50,964 nt of DNA, taken from Alphaproteobacteria bacterium (GTDB taxonomy: Bacteria; Pseudomonadota; Alphaproteobacteria; Caulobacterales; Aquidulcibacteraceae). The translations under genes were made by a program, and so were the position numbers. The notes under the pieces were generated by a model that saw only the letters and a program-made list of their open reading frames with translations, searched no databases and was not told the DNA's origin. Location of the stretch: assembly GCA_026400735.1 (NCBI GenBank), contig JAPLOL010000062.1, positions 1-50,964 on the forward strand. The letters are read 5' to 3'. Shown here one piece after another: positions 1 to 9,161 of the stretch; positions within the stretch are counted from its first letter, which is position 1, and every line of letters starts with the position of its first letter.

Positions 1-130
1 CACCATGCGTGCGCACTTGCGCATCTGCGGGCGTGGCCAGGCACATCGCGGCAAACGCCGCGCAGAGCGCAACGCCGCCTCGCACGAAGCGAGACGGCGC
101 GCTCAAAAAGGTGGCCGTGTTGCGGATCAT
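1..130 (-). CDS. Secreted protein, N-terminal part only (cut by window edge)
   Basis: An ATG at 130-128 overlaps the TGA of the preceding small gene (ATGA) and opens a frame running off the left edge. The 43 visible residues begin MIRNTATFLSAPSRFVRGG, followed by a hydrophobic stretch (VALCAAFAAMCLATPADAQ) that is a typical Sec signal peptide with a cleavage site after ADAQ. Only about five mature residues are visible, so the function cannot be read. Overlap with the upstream stop implies translational coupling, making it the third gene of the operon that starts with the Asn/Ser/Asp repeat protein at 588-2675. If this is a Fap-like fibre operon, a periplasmic peptidase or outer-membrane export component would be expected here; that is inference. 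Confidence 0.75.
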   Translation of the reverse strand, partial: MIRNTATFLSAPSRFVRGGVALCAAFAAMCLATPADAQVRTHG

Positions 131-513
131 GAACCCGGAACTGGCGCCAGCACGACAGAGACGTTCATGCTGGATTGAAGGTTGTTGTTGTGTCCGGTGT
201 TAATCACGAAGTTGCCGATCCCGTCATAGCCGGAAAAAGCGCCTGACCCGAGGTTCACCTGCCCGGAGCTGACAGTGTCGCCAGTCACCGAATTGCCTGT
301 GTTCGTCGCGGTCAAAACTTGCCCCGTATCGATCACCACCTCGACGCCCGTCCCTCCAGAGAGGGCGCCCATGTCTTCCAAGCTCAGAAGCTCCGTTTCG
401 TCAGCCGGGGCTGGCGAACCCGAAGCGGGAAGGGCTTCATGAGCTGATGCTGCGCTGGCCGAAACCAGAACCGCGGCGATCAGGATCCCTCTCACTTTGG
501 TCACGCTCTTCAT
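127..513 (-). CDS. Small Sec-exported protein with double-glycine-like motif; fibre-subunit candidate
   Basis: 128 residues. The start at 513 is chosen over an in-frame ATG ten codons upstream because AAGGAAGG lies about 8 bases before it. Residues 1 to about 25 form a signal peptide (MKSVTKVRGILIAAVLVSAS). A short acidic segment then carries LLSLEDMGALSGG, which matches the leader consensus of C39-peptidase substrates (L-12, S-11, hydrophobic -7 and -4, GG). The remaining ~75 residues are Asn/Gly/Ser/Thr-rich beta-prone sequence ending in a module (GAFSGYDGIGNFVINTG...NNNLQ) that also closes the neighbouring 695-residue protein. No Cys and no membrane helix after the signal. It lies 74 bases downstream of the repeat gene and overlaps the next gene by ATGA. 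I do not know a named family; Fap/curli-like minor subunit is my best guess. Confidence 0.8.
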   Translation of the reverse strand: MKSVTKVRGILIAAVLVSASAASAHEALPASGSPAPADETELLSLEDMGALSGGTGVEVVIDTGQVLTATNTGNSVTGDTVSSGQVNLGSGAFSGYDGIGNFVINTGHNNNLQSSMNVSVVLAPVPGS

Positions 514-546
514 TGTGCGCGCCTTCCTTCTTTGTAGAGGCAAGAA

Positions 547-576
547 CCAGGCCGATGGGCGAACCCACCGGCCTGG
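547..576 (-). terminator. Intergenic hairpin with TTCG tetraloop (attenuator or mRNA-stabilising)
   Basis: Between the repeat gene stop (588) and the next gene start (513), the minus strand reads CCAGGCCGGTGGG-TTCG-CCCATCGGCCTGG: a 13-bp stem with one G-U pair and an extra-stable UUCG loop. The bases that follow (TTCTTG) are too poor in T for a strong terminator. A partial attenuator or a 3' end protecting the repeat-gene message would fit, letting the large subunit be made in excess of the downstream genes. Confidence 0.55.
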
Positions 577-587
577 CCTTAACCGCC

Positions 588-2675
588 TTACGGACGGCCG
601 TTGCCGAACGTGACGTTGGCGTTGGCGCCGACGGCTGTCGCCGCTTGGTTCGCCGAGGCCATGCCAGTGTTCATGCTGGACGTGTTGATGCCGCCGAAGT
701 TAGCAAACGCGCCGCCGTCCATCGAAATGTCACCGGTTGCGATTTCGCCTTCTTTGAAGCCATGGGCATCGATTTGGATGTCCGTCACGAGAGCGCCGAG
801 TTCCATCGACGTGACAACCATCGTGGTGGTTGAGTTGTCAGCGTTGTAGGAGTCTTCGACCCGCGTGTTGTTCGAGTCTTCCACCCGCACCGAGTTGTCG
901 GTGTTGAAGGAGTCTTCGTTACGAACGTCGGTGTTGAACGAGTCATCAACCGAGTGATCGTCGTTGAACGAGTCTTCGTTGCGGACCGAGTTGTCCGTGT
1001 TGAATGAGTCATCGTTCTCAACCGAGTTATCGGTGTTGAACGAGTCGTCGTTGTTGGTCGAGTTGTCGTTGCCGCTGTTGGCGACGTCGACGTTGACAGA
1101 GTTGTTGCTGTTGTCGGTCAGCGTGTTGTTCGACGCAACAGTGTTGAACGATTCGTCATTCTCGACCGAGTTATCGGTGTTGAACGAGTCGTCGTTGTTG
1201 GTCGAGTTGTCGTTGCCGCTGTCGGCTACGTTGACGTTCGTCGAGTTGTTGCTGTTGTCCGTCAGCGTGTTGTTCGACGCCACCGTGTTGAACGATTCGT
1301 CGTTATCAACCGAGTTGTCCGTGTTCACGGAGTTGTCGTTGCCCGAGTCGGCAACGGCCACGTTGAGGTTCGTCGAGTTGTTCGAGTTGTCGGTGTTGAT
1401 TGAGTCGTCCGAGTTGAACGAGCCGTCGTTGTCGTCGCCCGCCTGGCGCCAGTCGGCGTCAGTGTAGTCTTGCGCGTTGACGATGCTTTGGTCGCCGCCG
1501 ACTTGGCTGTTGCGATCGCCGTCGATCGACTGGCTGTTGCCAGTGTCATCAACCGCGACGGCCAGGTTGGTCGAGTTGTTCGAGTTATCGGTGTTAACCG
1601 AGTTGTCGTTGCCTGAGTCGGCAACGGCGACGTTCGTCGAATTGTCCGAATTGTCGTTGCCGCTGTCAGCGATCGCGAGGTTCGTCGAATTGTTCGAGTT
1701 GTCGGTGTTGACCGAGTTGTCGTTGCCGCTGTCGGCGATGTTCAGCGAGTTGTTGCTGTTGTCCGTCAGCGTGTTGCCGGATGCAACGGTGTTACCCGAG
1801 GCAACGGTGTTGTAGGACTCATCGTTGCCGGCGTCAGCAACGGCGACGTTCGTCGAGTTGTTGCTGTTGTCGGTGTTGACCGAGTTGTCGTTGCCGCTGT
1901 CAGCAACCGACAGGTTCGTCGAGTTGTTGCTGTTGTCGGTCAACGTGTTGCCCGAAGCGACGTTGTTGTAGGACTCGTCGTTGCCGGCATCAGCGACTGC
2001 GACGTTCGTCGAGTTGTTGCTGTTGTCGGTGTTGGTCGAGTTGTCGTTGCCGCTGTCGGCGATGTTCAACGAGTTGTCCGAGTTGTCGGTGTTGACTGAG
2101 TTGTCAACGCCATTGCCCGAGAAGTTGCCGTTGCCGGAGTCAGCCACGTCAACGTTTGTCGAGTTGTCGTCGCCGTTACCCGAGAAGTTGCCATTGCCGC
2201 TGTCGGCGATGTCGGTCGAGTTGTCGTCGCCATTGCCCGAGAAATTGCCGTTGCCGCTGTCGGCGACGTCAACGTTCGTCGAGTTGTTGGTGTTGTCGGT
2301 GTTCGTCGAGTTGTCGTTGCCTGAGTCGGCGACGGCCAGATTCACGTTCGTCGAGTTGTCCGAGTTGTCGGTGTTGAACGAGTCTTCGTTCTTGGTCTCG
2401 TTCTCGTTCTTGACTTCTTGGTTGAACGAATCTTCGACCGAAGTGTCGATCGTCGTGGTTTCTTGGTTCGAATAAGAATCCGCGCTTTGCGACGAGTTGA
2501 ACGAGTCTTCAGCGGTAAATTCGTTCTCGGTCTCGCTGTTGTCGACCGTTGCGGTGCTGTCGTCGTATGCGACGGCGTTGCCGTCATCCATACCCGGCGC
2601 GCCAGCCCAAGCAGCCGGCGCGAACGCCAGACCGAGGGCAACAGCACAAACCGAGCTCAAAAGCTTCAGTTGCAT
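588..2675 (-). CDS. Asn/Asp/Ser/Thr-rich repeat protein, secreted; candidate fibre/amyloid or adhesin subunit
   Basis: 695 residues. The start at 2675 has GGAGG 9 bases upstream and gives a clean signal peptide (MQLKLLSSVCAVALGLAFAP, AWA cleavage). From about residue 60 to 610 the protein is almost wholly low-complexity repeats of two kinds: TDNSNNSTNVAVADSGNDNS-like units near the centre and DSFNTDNSVENDE-like units near both ends. Three GNGNFSGNGDDNST units sit early. It has almost no Lys/Arg and no Cys after the signal, so it is very acidic. The last ~80 residues change character: TSMELGAL, then GGAFANFGGINTSSMNTG...ANQAATAVGANANV, which parallels the C-terminus of the next gene. Regular spacing of Asn/Ser suggests a beta-solenoid or cross-beta fibre; the NQ-rich C-terminal pattern recalls Fap repeats. 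A Sec signal and lack of GGxGxD repeats argue against type I secretion. Confidence 0.8.
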   Translation of the reverse strand: MQLKLLSSVCAVALGLAFAPAAWAGAPGMDDGNAVAYDDSTATVDNSETENEFTAEDSFNSSQSADSYSNQETTTIDTSVEDSFNQEVKNENETKNEDSFNTDNSDNSTNVNLAVADSGNDNSTNTDNTNNSTNVDVADSGNGNFSGNGDDNSTDIADSGNGNFSGNGDDNSTNVDVADSGNGNFSGNGVDNSVNTDNSDNSLNIADSGNDNSTNTDNSNNSTNVAVADAGNDESYNNVASGNTLTDNSNNSTNLSVADSGNDNSVNTDNSNNSTNVAVADAGNDESYNTVASGNTVASGNTLTDNSNNSLNIADSGNDNSVNTDNSNNSTNLAIADSGNDNSDNSTNVAVADSGNDNSVNTDNSNNSTNLAVAVDDTGNSQSIDGDRNSQVGGDQSIVNAQDYTDADWRQAGDDNDGSFNSDDSINTDNSNNSTNLNVAVADSGNDNSVNTDNSVDNDESFNTVASNNTLTDNSNNSTNVNVADSGNDNSTNNDDSFNTDNSVENDESFNTVASNNTLTDNSNNSVNVDVANSGNDNSTNNDDSFNTDNSVENDDSFNTDNSVRNEDSFNDDHSVDDSFNTDVRNEDSFNTDNSVRVEDSNNTRVEDSYNADNSTTTMVVTSMELGALVTDIQIDAHGFKEGEIATGDISMDGGAFANFGGINTSSMNTGMASANQAATAVGANANVTFGNGRP
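840..2520. repeat. Degenerate tandem repeats inside the repeat gene; best copy pair 1024-1311
   Basis: The coding repeats are also DNA repeats. The clearest is a 144-base (48-codon) tandem pair, 1024-1167 and 1168-1311, whose first ~55 bases (starting GAGTTATCGGTGTTGAACGA) are identical and which stay alignable to the end. Shorter units such as GAGTTGTCGTTGCCGCTGTC recur many times to 2330. Spacers are not unique, so this is not a CRISPR array. Copy number could change by recombination in steps that keep the reading frame. Confidence 0.85.
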
Positions 2676-2716: not shown

Positions 2717-2825
2717 TGGTTAATGTTCGGGATGGTGCGGCCAGCTTTGCGCAAGTTACGGAGAGGCGAGAGACAATCTTGGTTAAACAACTCAATCGAG
2801 AAATACTGCGGTCGTTCCTGGTTAA
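2717..2825 (-). promoter_or_regulatory. Three TTAACCA motifs (CtrA half-site-like) in the 353-base intergenic region
   Basis: The gap 2676-3028 between the divergent repeat gene and sugar dehydratase is visibly more AT-rich than its surroundings. On the minus strand it contains TTAACCA three times (plus-strand TGGTTAA at 2717-2723, 2780-2786 and 2819-2825). The CtrA master regulator of alphaproteobacteria recognises TTAA-N7-TTAAC and the half-site TTAACCAT, so these may be CtrA sites. No full gapped site is present and no sigma-70 promoter is convincing. A short open frame here looks like chance. Confidence 0.4.
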
Positions 2826-4644: not shown

Positions 4645-5949
4645 TCAGTTGGTGCGGCCGGTCGCAGTGTCCAGTGTGAGCACGCCCGTGGCCGCCAGCA
4701 AGGCGTAAGAGGCGACTGTAGCGTCGGCATTTGCGCGCACACGCCCGATCAGCGCATTGCGCGCTTCTTCTTCAGCGTCGAGCACGTCGAGCGTGGAGCG
4801 CAAACCATAGCCGCGTTCTCGTTCCGCGCCTTCGACCGCGATGGCGGAAGCTTCCACTTGCTCATTTGCGGCCGCGAGGACGTCGCGACTTGCCACAAGG
4901 TCGCTCCAGGCGGCGCTCACGTTTGCGATGACTTCGCGGCGCTGAGCTTCGGTTCGCGCCTCGGCGCGATCGACGTTGATCCGACTTTGGCGCGTGCGCG
5001 ACCAAGCGTAGCCGCCCTCAAAGAGCGGCATGCTGAATTGCGCGACGGCGCTTGAGCTCTCGCGCCGAGATTCGGAGGTGCTGAAGTCGCGGTTCTCCTC
5101 GGCGCGCCCGACGAGTGAAACTTGGGGGAGTAGCGCTGAGCGTTCGATCGTAACTTGTGCTTGGGCTGCGCGTTCAGCCTGTTGCGCCCTGGCGAGATCA
5201 GGGTGTTGCTCGTCAGCAAGGCGCACGGCTTCTTCCATCGAGTGCGGGGTCTGCGGCAGCGCCGCAACCGGCGTTAGGCCTTGCGGTGGACGCCCAACGA
5301 TCGCGATGTACCGCGCCTGTGAACTTTCCAGATCGGCACGCGCGCGCGCTAGTGCGGCTCGCGCGCCGGCGAGCCGCGTTTGTGCTTGAGCGACATCGGT
5401 GCGGCTCACTTCTCCGACATCGAGCCTGCGCCGCGTGCCTGCGAGCAAACGGCTCAATCCGTCCACGTGCTCTCCCCGCAAGCGAAGGATTTCTTGATCC
5501 CGCAGTACACCCACGTAGGCGTTGACGGTCGCCAGCAGCAGGTCTTGTTCGCGCGAGCGAAGTCCTTCGCGTGCAGCGGCGATGTTTGCGTTAGCGAGGC
5601 GCGCCTGGCCGCTGCGGCGGAAGCCGGTGAAGAGCTGTTGCGTGACTTGAGCCACACCGGTTGAGGGCGTGAGTTCGTCCTGCGTTGTGGTCGGTCCGAA
5701 GAAGCCGTTGGTGTCGCTTTCGACGTTCTGTATCCCCGTGCTCGCGCTTACGCCGAGCGACGGAAGATAGGAGGCGACTGCTTGCGCGCGCTCTTCCCGC
5801 GCCGCCCGCACCGCTAGTCGCGCTTCTTCGAGATTGGGGTTATTGGCGTGCGCGGCCACCAACGCATCATCGAGCGTGTCGGCATGCGCCGCGCACGGCG
5901 CGATCAGCGCTGGCGCAATAAGCGCTAGCGAAGCGAACAGGGTTCTCAT
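4645..5949 (-). CDS. tolC: TolC-family outer-membrane channel of a type I secretion system
   Basis: 434 residues from the ATG at 5949, preceded by GGGAGG; an upstream ATG nine codons earlier would spoil the signal peptide. The signal is MRTLFASLALIAPALIA, cleaved near AHA. Two long alpha-helical, Gln/Ala/Arg-rich repeats follow, each beginning with the TolC pattern (DDALVAAHANNPNLEEARL and EEAVRLADEQHPDLARAQQA), as expected of trimeric outer-membrane factors with an internal duplication. It starts 2 bases after the HlyD-type gene stop, so ABC ATPase, adaptor and channel form one operon. It provides the outer-membrane exit duct. Confidence 0.92.
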   Translation of the reverse strand: MRTLFASLALIAPALIAPCAAHADTLDDALVAAHANNPNLEEARLAVRAAREERAQAVASYLPSLGVSASTGIQNVESDTNGFFGPTTTQDELTPSTGVAQVTQQLFTGFRRSGQARLANANIAAAREGLRSREQDLLLATVNAYVGVLRDQEILRLRGEHVDGLSRLLAGTRRRLDVGEVSRTDVAQAQTRLAGARAALARARADLESSQARYIAIVGRPPQGLTPVAALPQTPHSMEEAVRLADEQHPDLARAQQAERAAQAQVTIERSALLPQVSLVGRAEENRDFSTSESRRESSSAVAQFSMPLFEGGYAWSRTRQSRINVDRAEARTEAQRREVIANVSAAWSDLVASRDVLAAANEQVEASAIAVEGAERERGYGLRSTLDVLDAEEEARNALIGRVRANADATVASYALLAATGVLTLDTATGRTN

Positions 5950-5951
5950 GT

Positions 5952-7220
5952 TCAGTCCTCCCGCAGGGAGCGCCACAGCGTCTGGTTCAGGGGCTCAAGC
6001 AAATATTGCAGCGCTGTGCGCTTGCGTGTCGGGATAACAACCTGCGCCGAGAGGCCTGCGCGCAGCGTGTGCTCGTCGCCCGCAGCCTCGGTCAGCCGCC
6101 GAAGTTCTTCCGGCGAGACGGCGACTTGCGCGACGAAATAACCTTGGCCCGATCGTTCGTCGATAAAACGGTCCGCAGACACTTGCCGAACTTCACCATA
6201 GACGAGCGGCAGATTGCGGCCGCCAAAGGCGCTGATGCGTACTTCTGTGCGCTGCCCAACTTTGAGATTATCCGCTGACTCCGGCGCTACGCGCGCTTCA
6301 ACGATCAGGTCTTGGCCTTCCGGCACAATGTCCATGAGCCGTTCGCCTGCGCGAACGACACCGCCAACGGTGTGAACCTGAAGGCCCACGACGACGCCTG
6401 CGACCGGTGCGCGAAGGCGTGTCAGCTCGAGCCGCTCCCGCGCTCCCGCGAGTTGCGGGGTCAATTCTGCCAGGCGCGCTTCCACTTGGCGCGAGTCGCC
6501 AAAGCGTTCTTGCTGTGTCGAAGCGATGAGCGAAGTCAGTTCAGAACGACGTCCTTGGAGTTCCGCGAGGCTGCGTTCCAAGGCGCGTACGCGCGTCATC
6601 GGCACGAGTTGCTCCTCGGCCAATGTTCGCATGCCTGAAAGTTCTTCGTTGAGCAGCGCTTCTTGCCGGTTCAGCGAGGTGATCTCGCCGCGATAGCCAG
6701 AAATGCGCGCGTCGTACGCGCTCCAGGAGCCGCCGCGTGCTTCGCGCCGATGCCGTTCGAATGCCGCGTCCGCGATTGCGGCATCGTCCGGCGAAAGCGC
6801 CGCCCATTCCGCTGGCCGTTGCAACGTACCCGAGCCGCTTTGTTCGGCGGCCAGCCGCGCGCGCTGCATCTGCAGATCGACGACCTGTGAGAGTAGGGCC
6901 TGTTCCTGCGCTACCAGTTCCGGCGAGCCCAGCTCGATCAGAACCTGGCCTTGAGCGACGCGGTCACCCTCTTCGACGTGGAGAGCGGAAACAATGCCCC
7001 CATCGCGATGCTGCACTGTCTGCCGATTGCCGGCGACGACGATCACACCGGGCGCCACCACCGCCGCGTCCAGGGGCGCAAATGCAGCCCAGCCGCCAAA
7101 TCCAAGGAAGAACACGAGAAGTGCAATCACTCCGCCGCGGATCTCCTTGCCGCCGGAATCGTCGGCGTTATCGAGATCAGACTCGAGCGTAGGCCGCCGG
7201 TTGAGAAGCTCGATGGTCAT
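5952..7220 (-). CDS. HlyD-family periplasmic adaptor of type I secretion
   Basis: 422 residues. An N-terminal cytosolic tail is followed by one membrane helix at about residues 30-50 (VIALLVFFLGFGGWAAFAPL). The biotinyl-lipoyl half-motifs are split around a coiled coil: VQHRDGGIVSALHVEEGDRVAQGQVLIEL and later LTRLRAPVAGVVVGLQVHTVGGVV. The middle third is a long Arg/Glu/Leu coiled coil, and the C-terminal beta domain is of the AprE/PrtE type. It bridges the inner-membrane ABC protein and TolC. Its ATG overlaps the stop of the ABC gene (ATGA), indicating coupled translation and 1:1 assembly. Confidence 0.93.
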   Translation of the reverse strand: MTIELLNRRPTLESDLDNADDSGGKEIRGGVIALLVFFLGFGGWAAFAPLDAAVVAPGVIVVAGNRQTVQHRDGGIVSALHVEEGDRVAQGQVLIELGSPELVAQEQALLSQVVDLQMQRARLAAEQSGSGTLQRPAEWAALSPDDAAIADAAFERHRREARGGSWSAYDARISGYRGEITSLNRQEALLNEELSGMRTLAEEQLVPMTRVRALERSLAELQGRRSELTSLIASTQQERFGDSRQVEARLAELTPQLAGARERLELTRLRAPVAGVVVGLQVHTVGGVVRAGERLMDIVPEGQDLIVEARVAPESADNLKVGQRTEVRISAFGGRNLPLVYGEVRQVSADRFIDERSGQGYFVAQVAVSPEELRRLTEAAGDEHTLRAGLSAQVVIPTRKRTALQYLLEPLNQTLWRSLRED

Positions 7221-8962
7221 TGTCGCGAACCCTCGTTTGGCACGGCCACAGGGCGAGGGCCGGCGCCAGGATTGATCCGCGCAAGTACGGCGTCGCGTGG
7301 GCCGAACGCGTCAATACGGCCTTCGGCGACGATCATCAGTTTGTTGACCTGGCTAAGAAAGCCAGTGCGGTGCGCCACGATAATGCTGCATACCCCTCGT
7401 GCACTTGCTTCCCTCAAGGCGTTGATCAGCGCTGTCTCACCGTCATTGTCCAAGTGTGCGTTCGGTTCGTCGAGTGCAAGCAGGACCGGATCGCCGTAAA
7501 GCGCGCGCGCGAGCGCCACGCGTTGTGCTTGGCCAGCTGAGAGCCCGCGTCCGTTCGGACCGATTTCTGTGTCGTAGCCGCGCGGTAGCGACAGGATCAT
7601 GTCATGCGCGCCGGCTTGCTGTGCCGCTCGAACGATTGCGTGATCGACTCCATCGCCAACGAGGCTGTCGAAGCGCGAAATGTTCTGGCCGATAGTGCCC
7701 CCAAATAGCGCAACTTCCTGCGGCAAATATCCGACGTGCCGGCCTAGCCGATCGGAATCCCAGTCCGTCATTTTGGCGCCGTCCAGACGCACAGCGCCTC
7801 CATCGGGAAGCGCTGCTCCGGCGATTGCGCGTAGGAGCGTCGTCTTGCCCGCGCCGCTCGGGCCGATTACGCCGATAATGTCCCCTGGCTCGCCACGGAA
7901 TGTCGCATTCATCAACAGAAAGCGGTCACCCGTCGGCGCGCGCACGGTCACGCTTTCAACGCTGAGTATGCCGCGAGGCTCGGGCAGGTTGGTGTAGTCG
8001 CGTTGGGTTTCTTGGGTGCGGAGAACTCGCGTGATGACGCCGTAGGCTTGTCGCCCTTGCTCGAATTGCCGCCAAGCTCCCACGATCAATTCGAGCGGCG
8101 CATATGCGCGTGAGCACAAGATTGATGCGGCAATGATGCCGCCAGCGGAAATGTCTTGTCGCAAAGCTAAGAACGCACCGAGGCCCAGCGCGGCAGATTG
8201 CAACACTAGGCGCGTGAACTTTGTCGTCGCAGTGTAAAACGAGTTCGCGCTGCCCGCGAGGTTTGTGCTTTCATTCAAGGACACGCGCATACGCAGCTGA
8301 CGCTCGACGAGCCGTTCCTGCATCCCAAGCGCGCGCGCCGCATCGCCTTGAATGCTGTCCGCAGATTGTAGGCCATACATGGCGCCCGCCGTTTCCTCGT
8401 TCGCCTTCAATGCGTCCTGCATGACACGCTGGTTCACGAGTGCGATCGCGACCAAGGTGGCGCCGCCGAGTAGAGCGAGCATTCCGATCCAAGGATGGAT
8501 GAGGAAACAAACGGCGATATAAATTGGCGCCCATGGCGCGTCGACCACTGCAAGCGCTGGCGGTCCGCTGAGAGCGCTGCGCAGCGCGTCGAACTCTCGC
8601 AGGATCGAAGCGTGGCCCGCTGCGGCGCGGCCTTCGCGCTGCAACGCCGCCCGAAGCACTGAAGGTGCGAGAACGCGATCCAACCGCCGCGACATCGCCA
8701 ACAGCAAGCGGATCCGCGTTCCATCCAGGAACGCCAGCACAGCCAAGCTCGCGACCAACACCAGCGTCAAATAGACGAGCGTCAGCACGCCGCCTGACGC
8801 CAAAACGCGGTCGTACACTTGCAGCATGTAGATGGACGGCGCGAGGTAGAGCAGGTTCAGACAGGCGCTGAACAGGATCACGAAGCCGATGTGGCGACGG
8901 CACGCGTCGAGCGCCGCCTTGAGCGTGCTGGACGCCGGCTGTTGTTCGGCCTTTCCGGCCAT
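7217..8962 (-). CDS. Type I secretion ABC permease/ATPase (PrtD/AprD class)
   Basis: 581 residues from the ATG at 8962; a GTG four codons upstream lies within the GAGG ribosome site and is less likely. The N-terminal half is the transmembrane domain with no C39 peptidase domain, typical of PrtD/AprD/HasD exporters of RTX-type substrates. The C-terminal ATPase shows Walker A GPSGAGKTT at about residue 368, signature LSAGQAQRVALARAL, Walker B VLLALDEPNAHLD and a switch His (VAHRTG). It heads the three-gene exporter operon. No substrate with RTX repeats is encoded nearby in the window. Confidence 0.93.
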   Translation of the reverse strand: MAGKAEQQPASSTLKAALDACRRHIGFVILFSACLNLLYLAPSIYMLQVYDRVLASGGVLTLVYLTLVLVASLAVLAFLDGTRIRLLLAMSRRLDRVLAPSVLRAALQREGRAAAGHASILREFDALRSALSGPPALAVVDAPWAPIYIAVCFLIHPWIGMLALLGGATLVAIALVNQRVMQDALKANEETAGAMYGLQSADSIQGDAARALGMQERLVERQLRMRVSLNESTNLAGSANSFYTATTKFTRLVLQSAALGLGAFLALRQDISAGGIIAASILCSRAYAPLELIVGAWRQFEQGRQAYGVITRVLRTQETQRDYTNLPEPRGILSVESVTVRAPTGDRFLLMNATFRGEPGDIIGVIGPSGAGKTTLLRAIAGAALPDGGAVRLDGAKMTDWDSDRLGRHVGYLPQEVALFGGTIGQNISRFDSLVGDGVDHAIVRAAQQAGAHDMILSLPRGYDTEIGPNGRGLSAGQAQRVALARALYGDPVLLALDEPNAHLDNDGETALINALREASARGVCSIIVAHRTGFLSQVNKLMIVAEGRIDAFGPRDAVLARINPGAGPRPVAVPNEGSRQ

Positions 8963-9161
8963 GTGCGTTCCCACCTCAGCGCGCCGTCTGCGGACGCCAC
9001 GTTTCTATAAAGCATCGATTATCCCACGCTAGGCGGGCGGGCAGCCTCCACCGCGACAGATCGGCCGGAAGTTCCCCGAAGGACACGTTGGATGGCCAAT
9101 TTCAGCCGTCGCGCTAGCCGGTTAGGAGGGCGCAACCTTACGGTGTTAGACCTCGCCGCAT

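Follow-up and report, generated by a model that had tools for sequence, protein, structure and literature searches.

The left end of contig JAPLOL010000062.1 (GenBank assembly GCA_026400735.1), from an alphaproteobacterium of the family Aquidulcibacteraceae in the order Caulobacterales, raises the question of whether three consecutive genes on the minus strand (bases 1-2675) encode the subunits of an extracellular fibre, and by which machinery such a fibre would be exported. The window, as we call the whole stretch of 50,964 nucleotides that was analysed, is the entire contig (C130 of a 173-contig assembly), and its base 1 is the contig end. The genes code for an acidic protein of 695 residues (588..2675, stop included), a protein of 128 residues (127..513, stop included) and the first 43 codons of a third protein (1..130), whose gene starts at base 130, overlaps the small gene through an ATGA and is cut at base 1. 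All three have Sec-type signals, which were assessed by eye throughout this work. The first-pass annotation, made from the sequence alone, had described this arrangement correctly in its coordinates, lengths and coupling.

We consider it probable that these genes open an operon for an extracellular fibre that is related to Fap and exported by a Fap-type machinery. Judged from homology, the machinery appears, with high confidence, to be Fap-related; the product is likely to be a fibre, and this fibre may be an amyloid. The operon resembles the Fap systems (fapABCDEF) of Pseudomonas and other Beta-, Gamma- and Deltaproteobacteria in its FapD-family C39 peptidase, its FapF-type pore and the position of large and small subunit genes at the operon front, with fapF sometimes separate, and probably in a FapE-like protein with a matching N-terminal module.

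Peptidase and pore of the operon

Matches to the small protein were found in 7 of 61 related genomes and at 15 loci in named records, which are labelled Hyphomonadaceae, Caulobacteraceae or its genera, or Alphaproteobacteria. In these relatives, the gene for the large protein comes first and is followed by those for the small protein, a C39 peptidase (~250 residues) and a fourth protein (~190 residues). Over 17 sources (the window and 16 loci), the small protein was present in all and the C39 gene in 16 (the window copy being truncated); 15 have the fourth gene and 14 the C-terminus of the large protein. Since the window ends with its contig, the identity of the third gene was taken from these relatives. 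Its visible 43 codons match positions 1-43 of the C39 profile (E 1.1e-6), the C39 protein of relatives matches NCBIfam FapD (E 4.9e-46) and Pfam Peptidase_C39 (E 5.9e-23), and the catalytic residues Cys73, His157 and Asp173 are invariant in 16/16 C39 proteins. Contig C87 begins within a second version of the small gene, with 86% DNA identity to window bases 1-476 across 477 bases, and the final 79 bases of C130 are identical to C87; the contigs were kept unjoined and represent either one locus with a strain mixture or two copies of the operon. Genome G003 also has two different copies (C69 and C418).

An outer-membrane protein with an N-terminal coiled coil is encoded next to the operon in seven Caulobacteraceae loci (L018, L019, L020, L021, L023, L024 and L025). 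The protein of L021 matches NCBIfam FapF (E 3e-41), and a PDB search with a profile of the seven pore proteins recovered the crystallised FapF (E 1.6e-39). Within the stretches fetched, loci of the window's own genus have no adjacent FapF; in the window's genome, a separate contig, C103, encodes a homologue of FapF (E 6.6e-156; NCBIfam FapF, E 3.3e-41). Thus, both a C39 peptidase and a FapF-like gene, for which the first-pass annotation had proposed to search beyond base 1, were found, the former directly downstream in relatives and the latter either adjacent or on a separate contig.

The co-occurrence of pore and operon was followed in two sets of genomes. Among 30 genomes of the genus, the operon's C39 gene was detected in 7, FapF (E below 1e-100) in 9 and both in 6; although on different contigs, FapF is present in 6 of the 7 operon genomes versus 3 of the 23 without operon (p 9e-4), counts that leave out the partial matches of G008, G014 and G020. 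In the order, 398 genomes were covered: 14 have the small protein (including one weak match, G543, at E 1.1e-4), 36 have FapF at E<=1e-20, after dropping 11 of 47 genomes with weaker matches, and 13 have both (p 4e-14). Since under 4% of the order's sampled genomes carry the operon, its distribution is patchy. As in the window's genome, the FapF homologue adjoins 3-oxoacid CoA-transferase-like genes (by eye) in three genomes of the genus (G007:C20, G010:C8 and G019:C5).

In an unrooted FapD tree, a branch with support 98/96 splits canonical Fap from the group of this operon; the canonical side also holds L115, an alphaproteobacterial sequence that was left unassigned. The tree holds 35 of the 53 intended sequences (34 different; 18 failed the extraction pattern), three of its rows are long-branched and, its midpoint root serving for drawing only, it does not show which type is derived. 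Both operon types, canonical-type Fap and the variant, are held by genome G884 (L105, L125). In G031, which belongs to another genus of the window's own family, a canonical-looking operon has three multi-repeat subunits (NCBIfam FapC, E 1.1e-6 to 1.6e-17), FapD, FapF, and a gene in the FapE position that gave no FapE match, while canonical-type FapE was found in two further alphaproteobacterial genomes (G145 and G184; E ~1e-22, below the cut-off). Canonical-type Fap genes and the separate group are therefore both present in Alphaproteobacteria. The accessible text of a 2013 survey places Fap only in Beta-, Gamma- and Deltaproteobacteria (PMC3792158), and that of a 2018 review reports 25 more genera with Fap and co-located fapD-fapF in five further phyla, with a supplement that may already list alphaproteobacterial Fap (PMC6173800). 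In our literature search, we recognised no report of Fap in Alphaproteobacteria among the matches listed, which is no proof of absence. The operon would extend fibres of the Fap kind, with very different fibre proteins, to a range of Alphaproteobacteria.

The two subunits and their C-terminal modules

The C-terminal modules of the large protein (residues ~634-695; 591..776) and of the small protein (residues ~79-118; 160..279) are related, as the first-pass annotation had noticed: profile-profile comparison gave E 9.6e-5 over 40 columns, and 0/60 column permutations scored as high. In Pfam and NCBIfam at E<=1, neither window subunit matched a family, curlin included, and no membership in FapB or FapC was obtained in NCBIfam scans of the window proteins or of the proteins of L016, L021 and C87. 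The small-protein profile found no solved structure at E<=10. The consensus reported for the canonical FapB/FapC repeat is GN-X-G-N-X2-AG-X2-NQQ-X-N (PMC5557850).

A connection to this repeat emerged through other members of the class. Among 385 class genomes, 28 had a C39 match at E<=1e-10, ten of them outside the order at E below 1e-60; at these ten loci a small protein precedes the C39 gene, and a FapE-like motif follows it in nine. The large subunits of L100 and L101 carry several repeats of the type 'SFxGxxGVxTVxQNNGxxN', which we call bridging repeats. The C-terminus of the large protein matched them with probability 79.5 and E 1.5e-5, and they in turn matched the canonical Fap repeats with probability 91.6 and E 8.3e-7, 0/60 column permutations being as good in either comparison; the bridging repeats were chosen by a self-made pattern, and this choice may favour the match. 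The small protein matched the bridging large-subunit repeats weakly (2/60 permutations as good) and, with the small proteins of L100 and L101 added, better than all permutations (0/60). The large module thus appears to be linked to canonical Fap repeats transitively only, via other Alphaproteobacteria. Because this link is stronger for the large C-terminus, it is likely that the large protein carries one diverged Fap-type repeat, and we are less sure of the same for the small one. Subunits with one repeat would help to ask what minimum sequence a Fap-type fibre needs.

Between its signal peptide and this module, the large protein, a candidate major fibre subunit with a FapC-like role, consists of an acidic low-complexity region of ~600 residues, rich in Asn, Ser, Asp and Thr. 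The protein has a pI of 4.05, contains 21.7% Asn, 14.5% Ser and 14.2% Asp, and counts 122 acidic (D+E) versus 11 basic (K+R) residues; its gene contains DNA tandem repeats of 18, 36, 48, 144 and 156 bases among others. In a charge-hydropathy plot, the repeat region lies well within the range predicted to be disordered (H 0.368 versus a limit of 0.478). Its hydrophobic periodicity is weak (0.10) beside a six-residue Ser signal (0.27), and a beta-solenoid is therefore not argued for. Orthologues range in length from 192 to 1130 residues. In L102, L103, L104, L023 and L024, the operon's large protein is (by eye) rich in Gly/Asn/Ala and not in Asn/Ser/Asp, so that the chemistry of the low-complexity part seems free to vary across relatives. 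The major subunit seems to be reduced to one repeat and a variable, here acidic, low-complexity region.

Leader-like motifs and a proposed export route

The fourth protein aligns with canonical FapE over 31 N-terminal columns only (E 1e-4, probability 58%), and NCBIfam FapE gave E 0.01 for the fourth protein of L019 and no match for that of C87. In canonical FapE proteins of the phylum, a stretch near the N-terminus reads L-x-D-x-E-L-x-x-x-R-G-[RK]-[YF], or a close form, at 21 of 22 loci from 20 genomes, a count that left out L070 (a 77-residue fragment). The FapE-like proteins of the operon's group have the same block with GG, in 14/14 complete proteins within the order and in 9/10 outside it. 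At L017, which stands outside the former count, only a 66-residue open FapE-like fragment without the leader region lies behind the C39 gene, owing to decay or an assembly error. Small subunits carry an EDMxxLSGG-like motif, which in the window is LSLEDMGALSGG (residues 43-54; 352..387), with strict GG in 12/17 in the order; outside the order, the residue after the first G is G, R, K, A or M in 8/10, with strict GG in three of these. FapF linkers of the window's genus contain SDADLSEIRGAG or similar in 9/9, and seven Caulobacteraceae FapF proteins showed no clear GG or GA site. The motifs of FapE-like proteins, small subunits and FapF linkers fit the leader pattern of C39 peptidases in bacteriocin systems.

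These leader-like motifs, present in the FapE-like proteins, in most small subunits and in some FapF linkers, allow substrates to be proposed for the FapD homologue, and we propose that it cuts the small subunit after residue 54. The likeness to bacteriocin-type double-glycine secretion lies in the C39 peptidase together with EDMxxLSGG or ELxxxRGG motifs; the difference is that peptidase and substrates have Sec-like signals here, which would place the cutting in the periplasm, and that there is no fused ABC transporter. According to the accessible text of a 2017 structure paper (PMC5557850), FapD is needed and proteolytic with an unclear target, canonical C39 sequences are missing from Fap proteins, and the substrates are likely to be FapE and perhaps FapF. 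A 2016 review had noted a double-glycine motif in FapF (PMC5135000). The substrate of FapD was stated as open in 2018 too (PMC6173800), and in a 2025 review (PMC12822426) its supposed targets are FapE and the periplasmic part of FapF. Cleavage of FapE and FapF has thus been suggested before; what is new is the precise conserved motif and the small subunit as a candidate substrate. The conserved motifs give an exact cut site that can be tested, along with the additional substrate, and, as named Brevundimonas and Asticcacaulis strains carry the operon, such tests are practical.

We propose that all products enter the periplasm by Sec, as their signal-like N-termini suggest. The large acidic protein would be the main subunit and would polymerise through its C-terminal module, its long, variable and negatively charged low-complexity region staying disordered and coating the fibre, and the small protein would serve as minor subunit or nucleator in a FapB-like role. 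In the periplasm, the FapD homologue may free the FapE-like protein and the small subunit of their double-glycine leaders and, in the window's genus, possibly cut the FapF linker too, as the conserved motifs indicate. Removal of the leaders would license export, and the FapF-type coiled-coil/beta-barrel pore from the other contig, a homologue of FapF, would carry the subunits across the outer membrane. A more specific version of this proposal, which we hold tentatively and at a little short of an even chance, is an alphaproteobacterial sister system of Fap in which the periplasmic C39 protein is a true double-glycine leader peptidase acting on the minor subunit and FapE, in some lineages also on the FapF linker, and in which the main protein is a single amyloid-type module with, in the window's genus, a very long acidic Asn/Ser/Asp brush. 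If true, a second class of FapD/FapF-dependent secretion would be defined and the cuts made by FapD revealed.

The stoichiometry of the subunits may be set at the RNA level. A strong hairpin without a U-tract lies between the large and the small gene on the minus strand (548..575; arms 575-565 and 558-548). Twelve of 13 such intergenic stretches gave more stable folds than their shuffles did (z -2.2 to -5.6), all but that of L023; of two more, folded with no shuffled comparison, L018 shares its hairpin with L019 and L024 has none. In seven same-genus sequences, 77/77 cells pair and 4/11 pairs change on both sides, which was reached by 6/500 shuffles. Hairpins of this kind often stabilise the upstream message; such a role would agree with an order in which the major subunit precedes minor ones, and the hairpin probably keeps the large subunit in excess of the small one.

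Competing readings, upstream boxes and neighbouring genes

Several observations weigh against a Fap-related fibre. The canonical Fap repeat profile did not rise above shuffles on the subunits (best real score 7.7 bits, best shuffle 8.4), and direct profile-profile comparison of the subunits with canonical Fap repeats was not significant, with 2/60 permutations equal for each. The large protein has no C-terminal CxxC, its only Cys sitting in the signal peptide, and C-X-X-C at the FapC C-terminus is a reported Fap feature (PMC5135000). Nor is the long acidic region universal, as the large protein of L025 counts only 16 acidic residues beside 10 basic ones in a length of 192. For the small subunit, the structure model has low confidence (mean pLDDT 46), with a weak short helix at residues 45-51. 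The matches to FapD (156.8 bits) and FapF (141.4 bits) stay far under the respective NCBI equivalog cut-offs of 330 and 700. A position matrix of canonical FapE did not cleanly separate the leader motifs from background: it gave negative scores to five of the 14 FapE-like proteins, where GG stands in place of GR/GK, and the top score among 142 background open reading frames was 12.8; because of this weak separation, the claim of leader motifs rests on alignments. Three genomes of the genus, each 99% complete (G007, G010 and G019), have FapF but not the operon, through either operon loss or another use of the pore, and no FapF was found in one operon genome (G003, 82% complete). Finally, the hairpin was no better than shuffles in the measure of further pair types (243/500).

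Some of these observations bear on what kind of Fap relative this is. The homologies of FapD, the FapE-like protein and FapF might be those of an ordinary canonical operon with fast-evolving subunits, and known fap operons often lack fapA and sometimes have fapF separated, as far as the available part of the survey goes (PMC3792158). We regard this as improbable: the FapD tree separates the groups, G884 has both types, the subunits show no direct match to the repeats and CxxC is absent. Because the direct repeat, CxxC and tree comparisons all failed to place it there, the operon is probably not an ordinary Fap member. It differs further in having one diverged candidate repeat where Fap typically has three, in the very long acidic Asn/Ser/Asp region of the window's genus and in the double-glycine leader-like motif of its small subunit, and no fapA-like gene was noticed in it, although no search aimed at fapA was made. 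The first-pass annotation, which had suggested a fibre system related to Fap but distinct from it, with repeats matching neither Fap nor curlin, is borne out by these comparisons. Fap-type export could also serve a product that is not an amyloid, with the large protein as a soluble or loosely attached acidic coat, similar to a charged brush, and the small subunit as its anchor. The strongly acidic and predicted disordered repeat region, the variation in orthologue length and the single candidate repeat per subunit would all suit such a coat, but the large C-terminal module links to Fap repeats via intermediates and the linkers of canonical FapC are reported to be highly variable as well (PMC3792158), so that we find this explanation doubtful, if worth serious attention.

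Other secretion systems fit the operon less well. The putative Fil pilus system has the same pair of families (NCBIfam FilB, a C39 peptidase, and FilC, a pore), but the matches are weaker than to Fap (FilB E 3.2e-33; FilC E 2.2e-25). Curli and the HfaA/HfaB/HfaD holdfast anchor share Asn/Gly-rich exported small proteins with the operon, whose host belongs to the order of Caulobacter and has two CsgG-family genes in its genome. These genes lie off the operon, on contigs C41 and C42, and the CsgG-like gene that the first-pass annotation had considered beyond base 1 did not turn up with the operon; neither curlin nor CsgG was matched among the operon proteins scanned, and the operon has a C39 peptidase and co-occurs with FapF. 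A curli or holdfast-anchor identity, which we find extremely unlikely, was therefore rejected. A type I secretion system (T1SS) with TolC-like, HlyD-like and ABC transporter genes (4645-8974) adjoins the operon in the window and, by eye, in L011, and C39 peptidases are described as usual in T1SS (PMC5557850); in that case, the operon might work for this system in place of a FapF pore, and its C39 protein would be the leader peptidase of the T1SS. We judge this very unlikely, since the C39 protein and the proposed substrates have Sec-like signals, the neighbours differ in Caulobacteraceae, where FapF occupies the adjacent place, and an M10 serralysin-like RTX gene on C87 is a likelier T1SS substrate.

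Expression of the proposed Fap-related fibre may follow the cell cycle, because two TTAACCA boxes upstream of the large gene (2780..2825, minus strand; 2786-2780 and 2825-2819) resemble the CtrA half-site, for which the consensus TTAACCAT is reported (PMC3692519). Upstream of the large gene, TTTAACCAAG is present in 6/6 same-genus loci examined, with a second TTAACCA 39-40 bases further up in 4/6, and TTAACCA occurs in 0/9 other upstream stretches. Two further candidates for regulation were discarded. Among 15 stretches upstream of the large gene, a strong sigma-54 promoter site was found only in L094 (11/12 positions, 0/200 shuffles) and none in the window; a 5' leader hairpin hiding the ribosome site was unsupported in six sequences (z -0.5 to 1.8).

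In another family of the order, the FapF homologue has a LysM (peptidoglycan-binding) domain in its periplasmic part (L093:8633-10357 and L094:5208-7076), and a gene for an NtrC-type regulator (named by eye) adjoins it. Beyond the operon, the genes of C87 include the M10 serralysin-like RTX protein (identified with Pfam), and similar genes follow in L011 and L012 (by eye); the products of these genes are likely substrates of the neighbouring T1SS.

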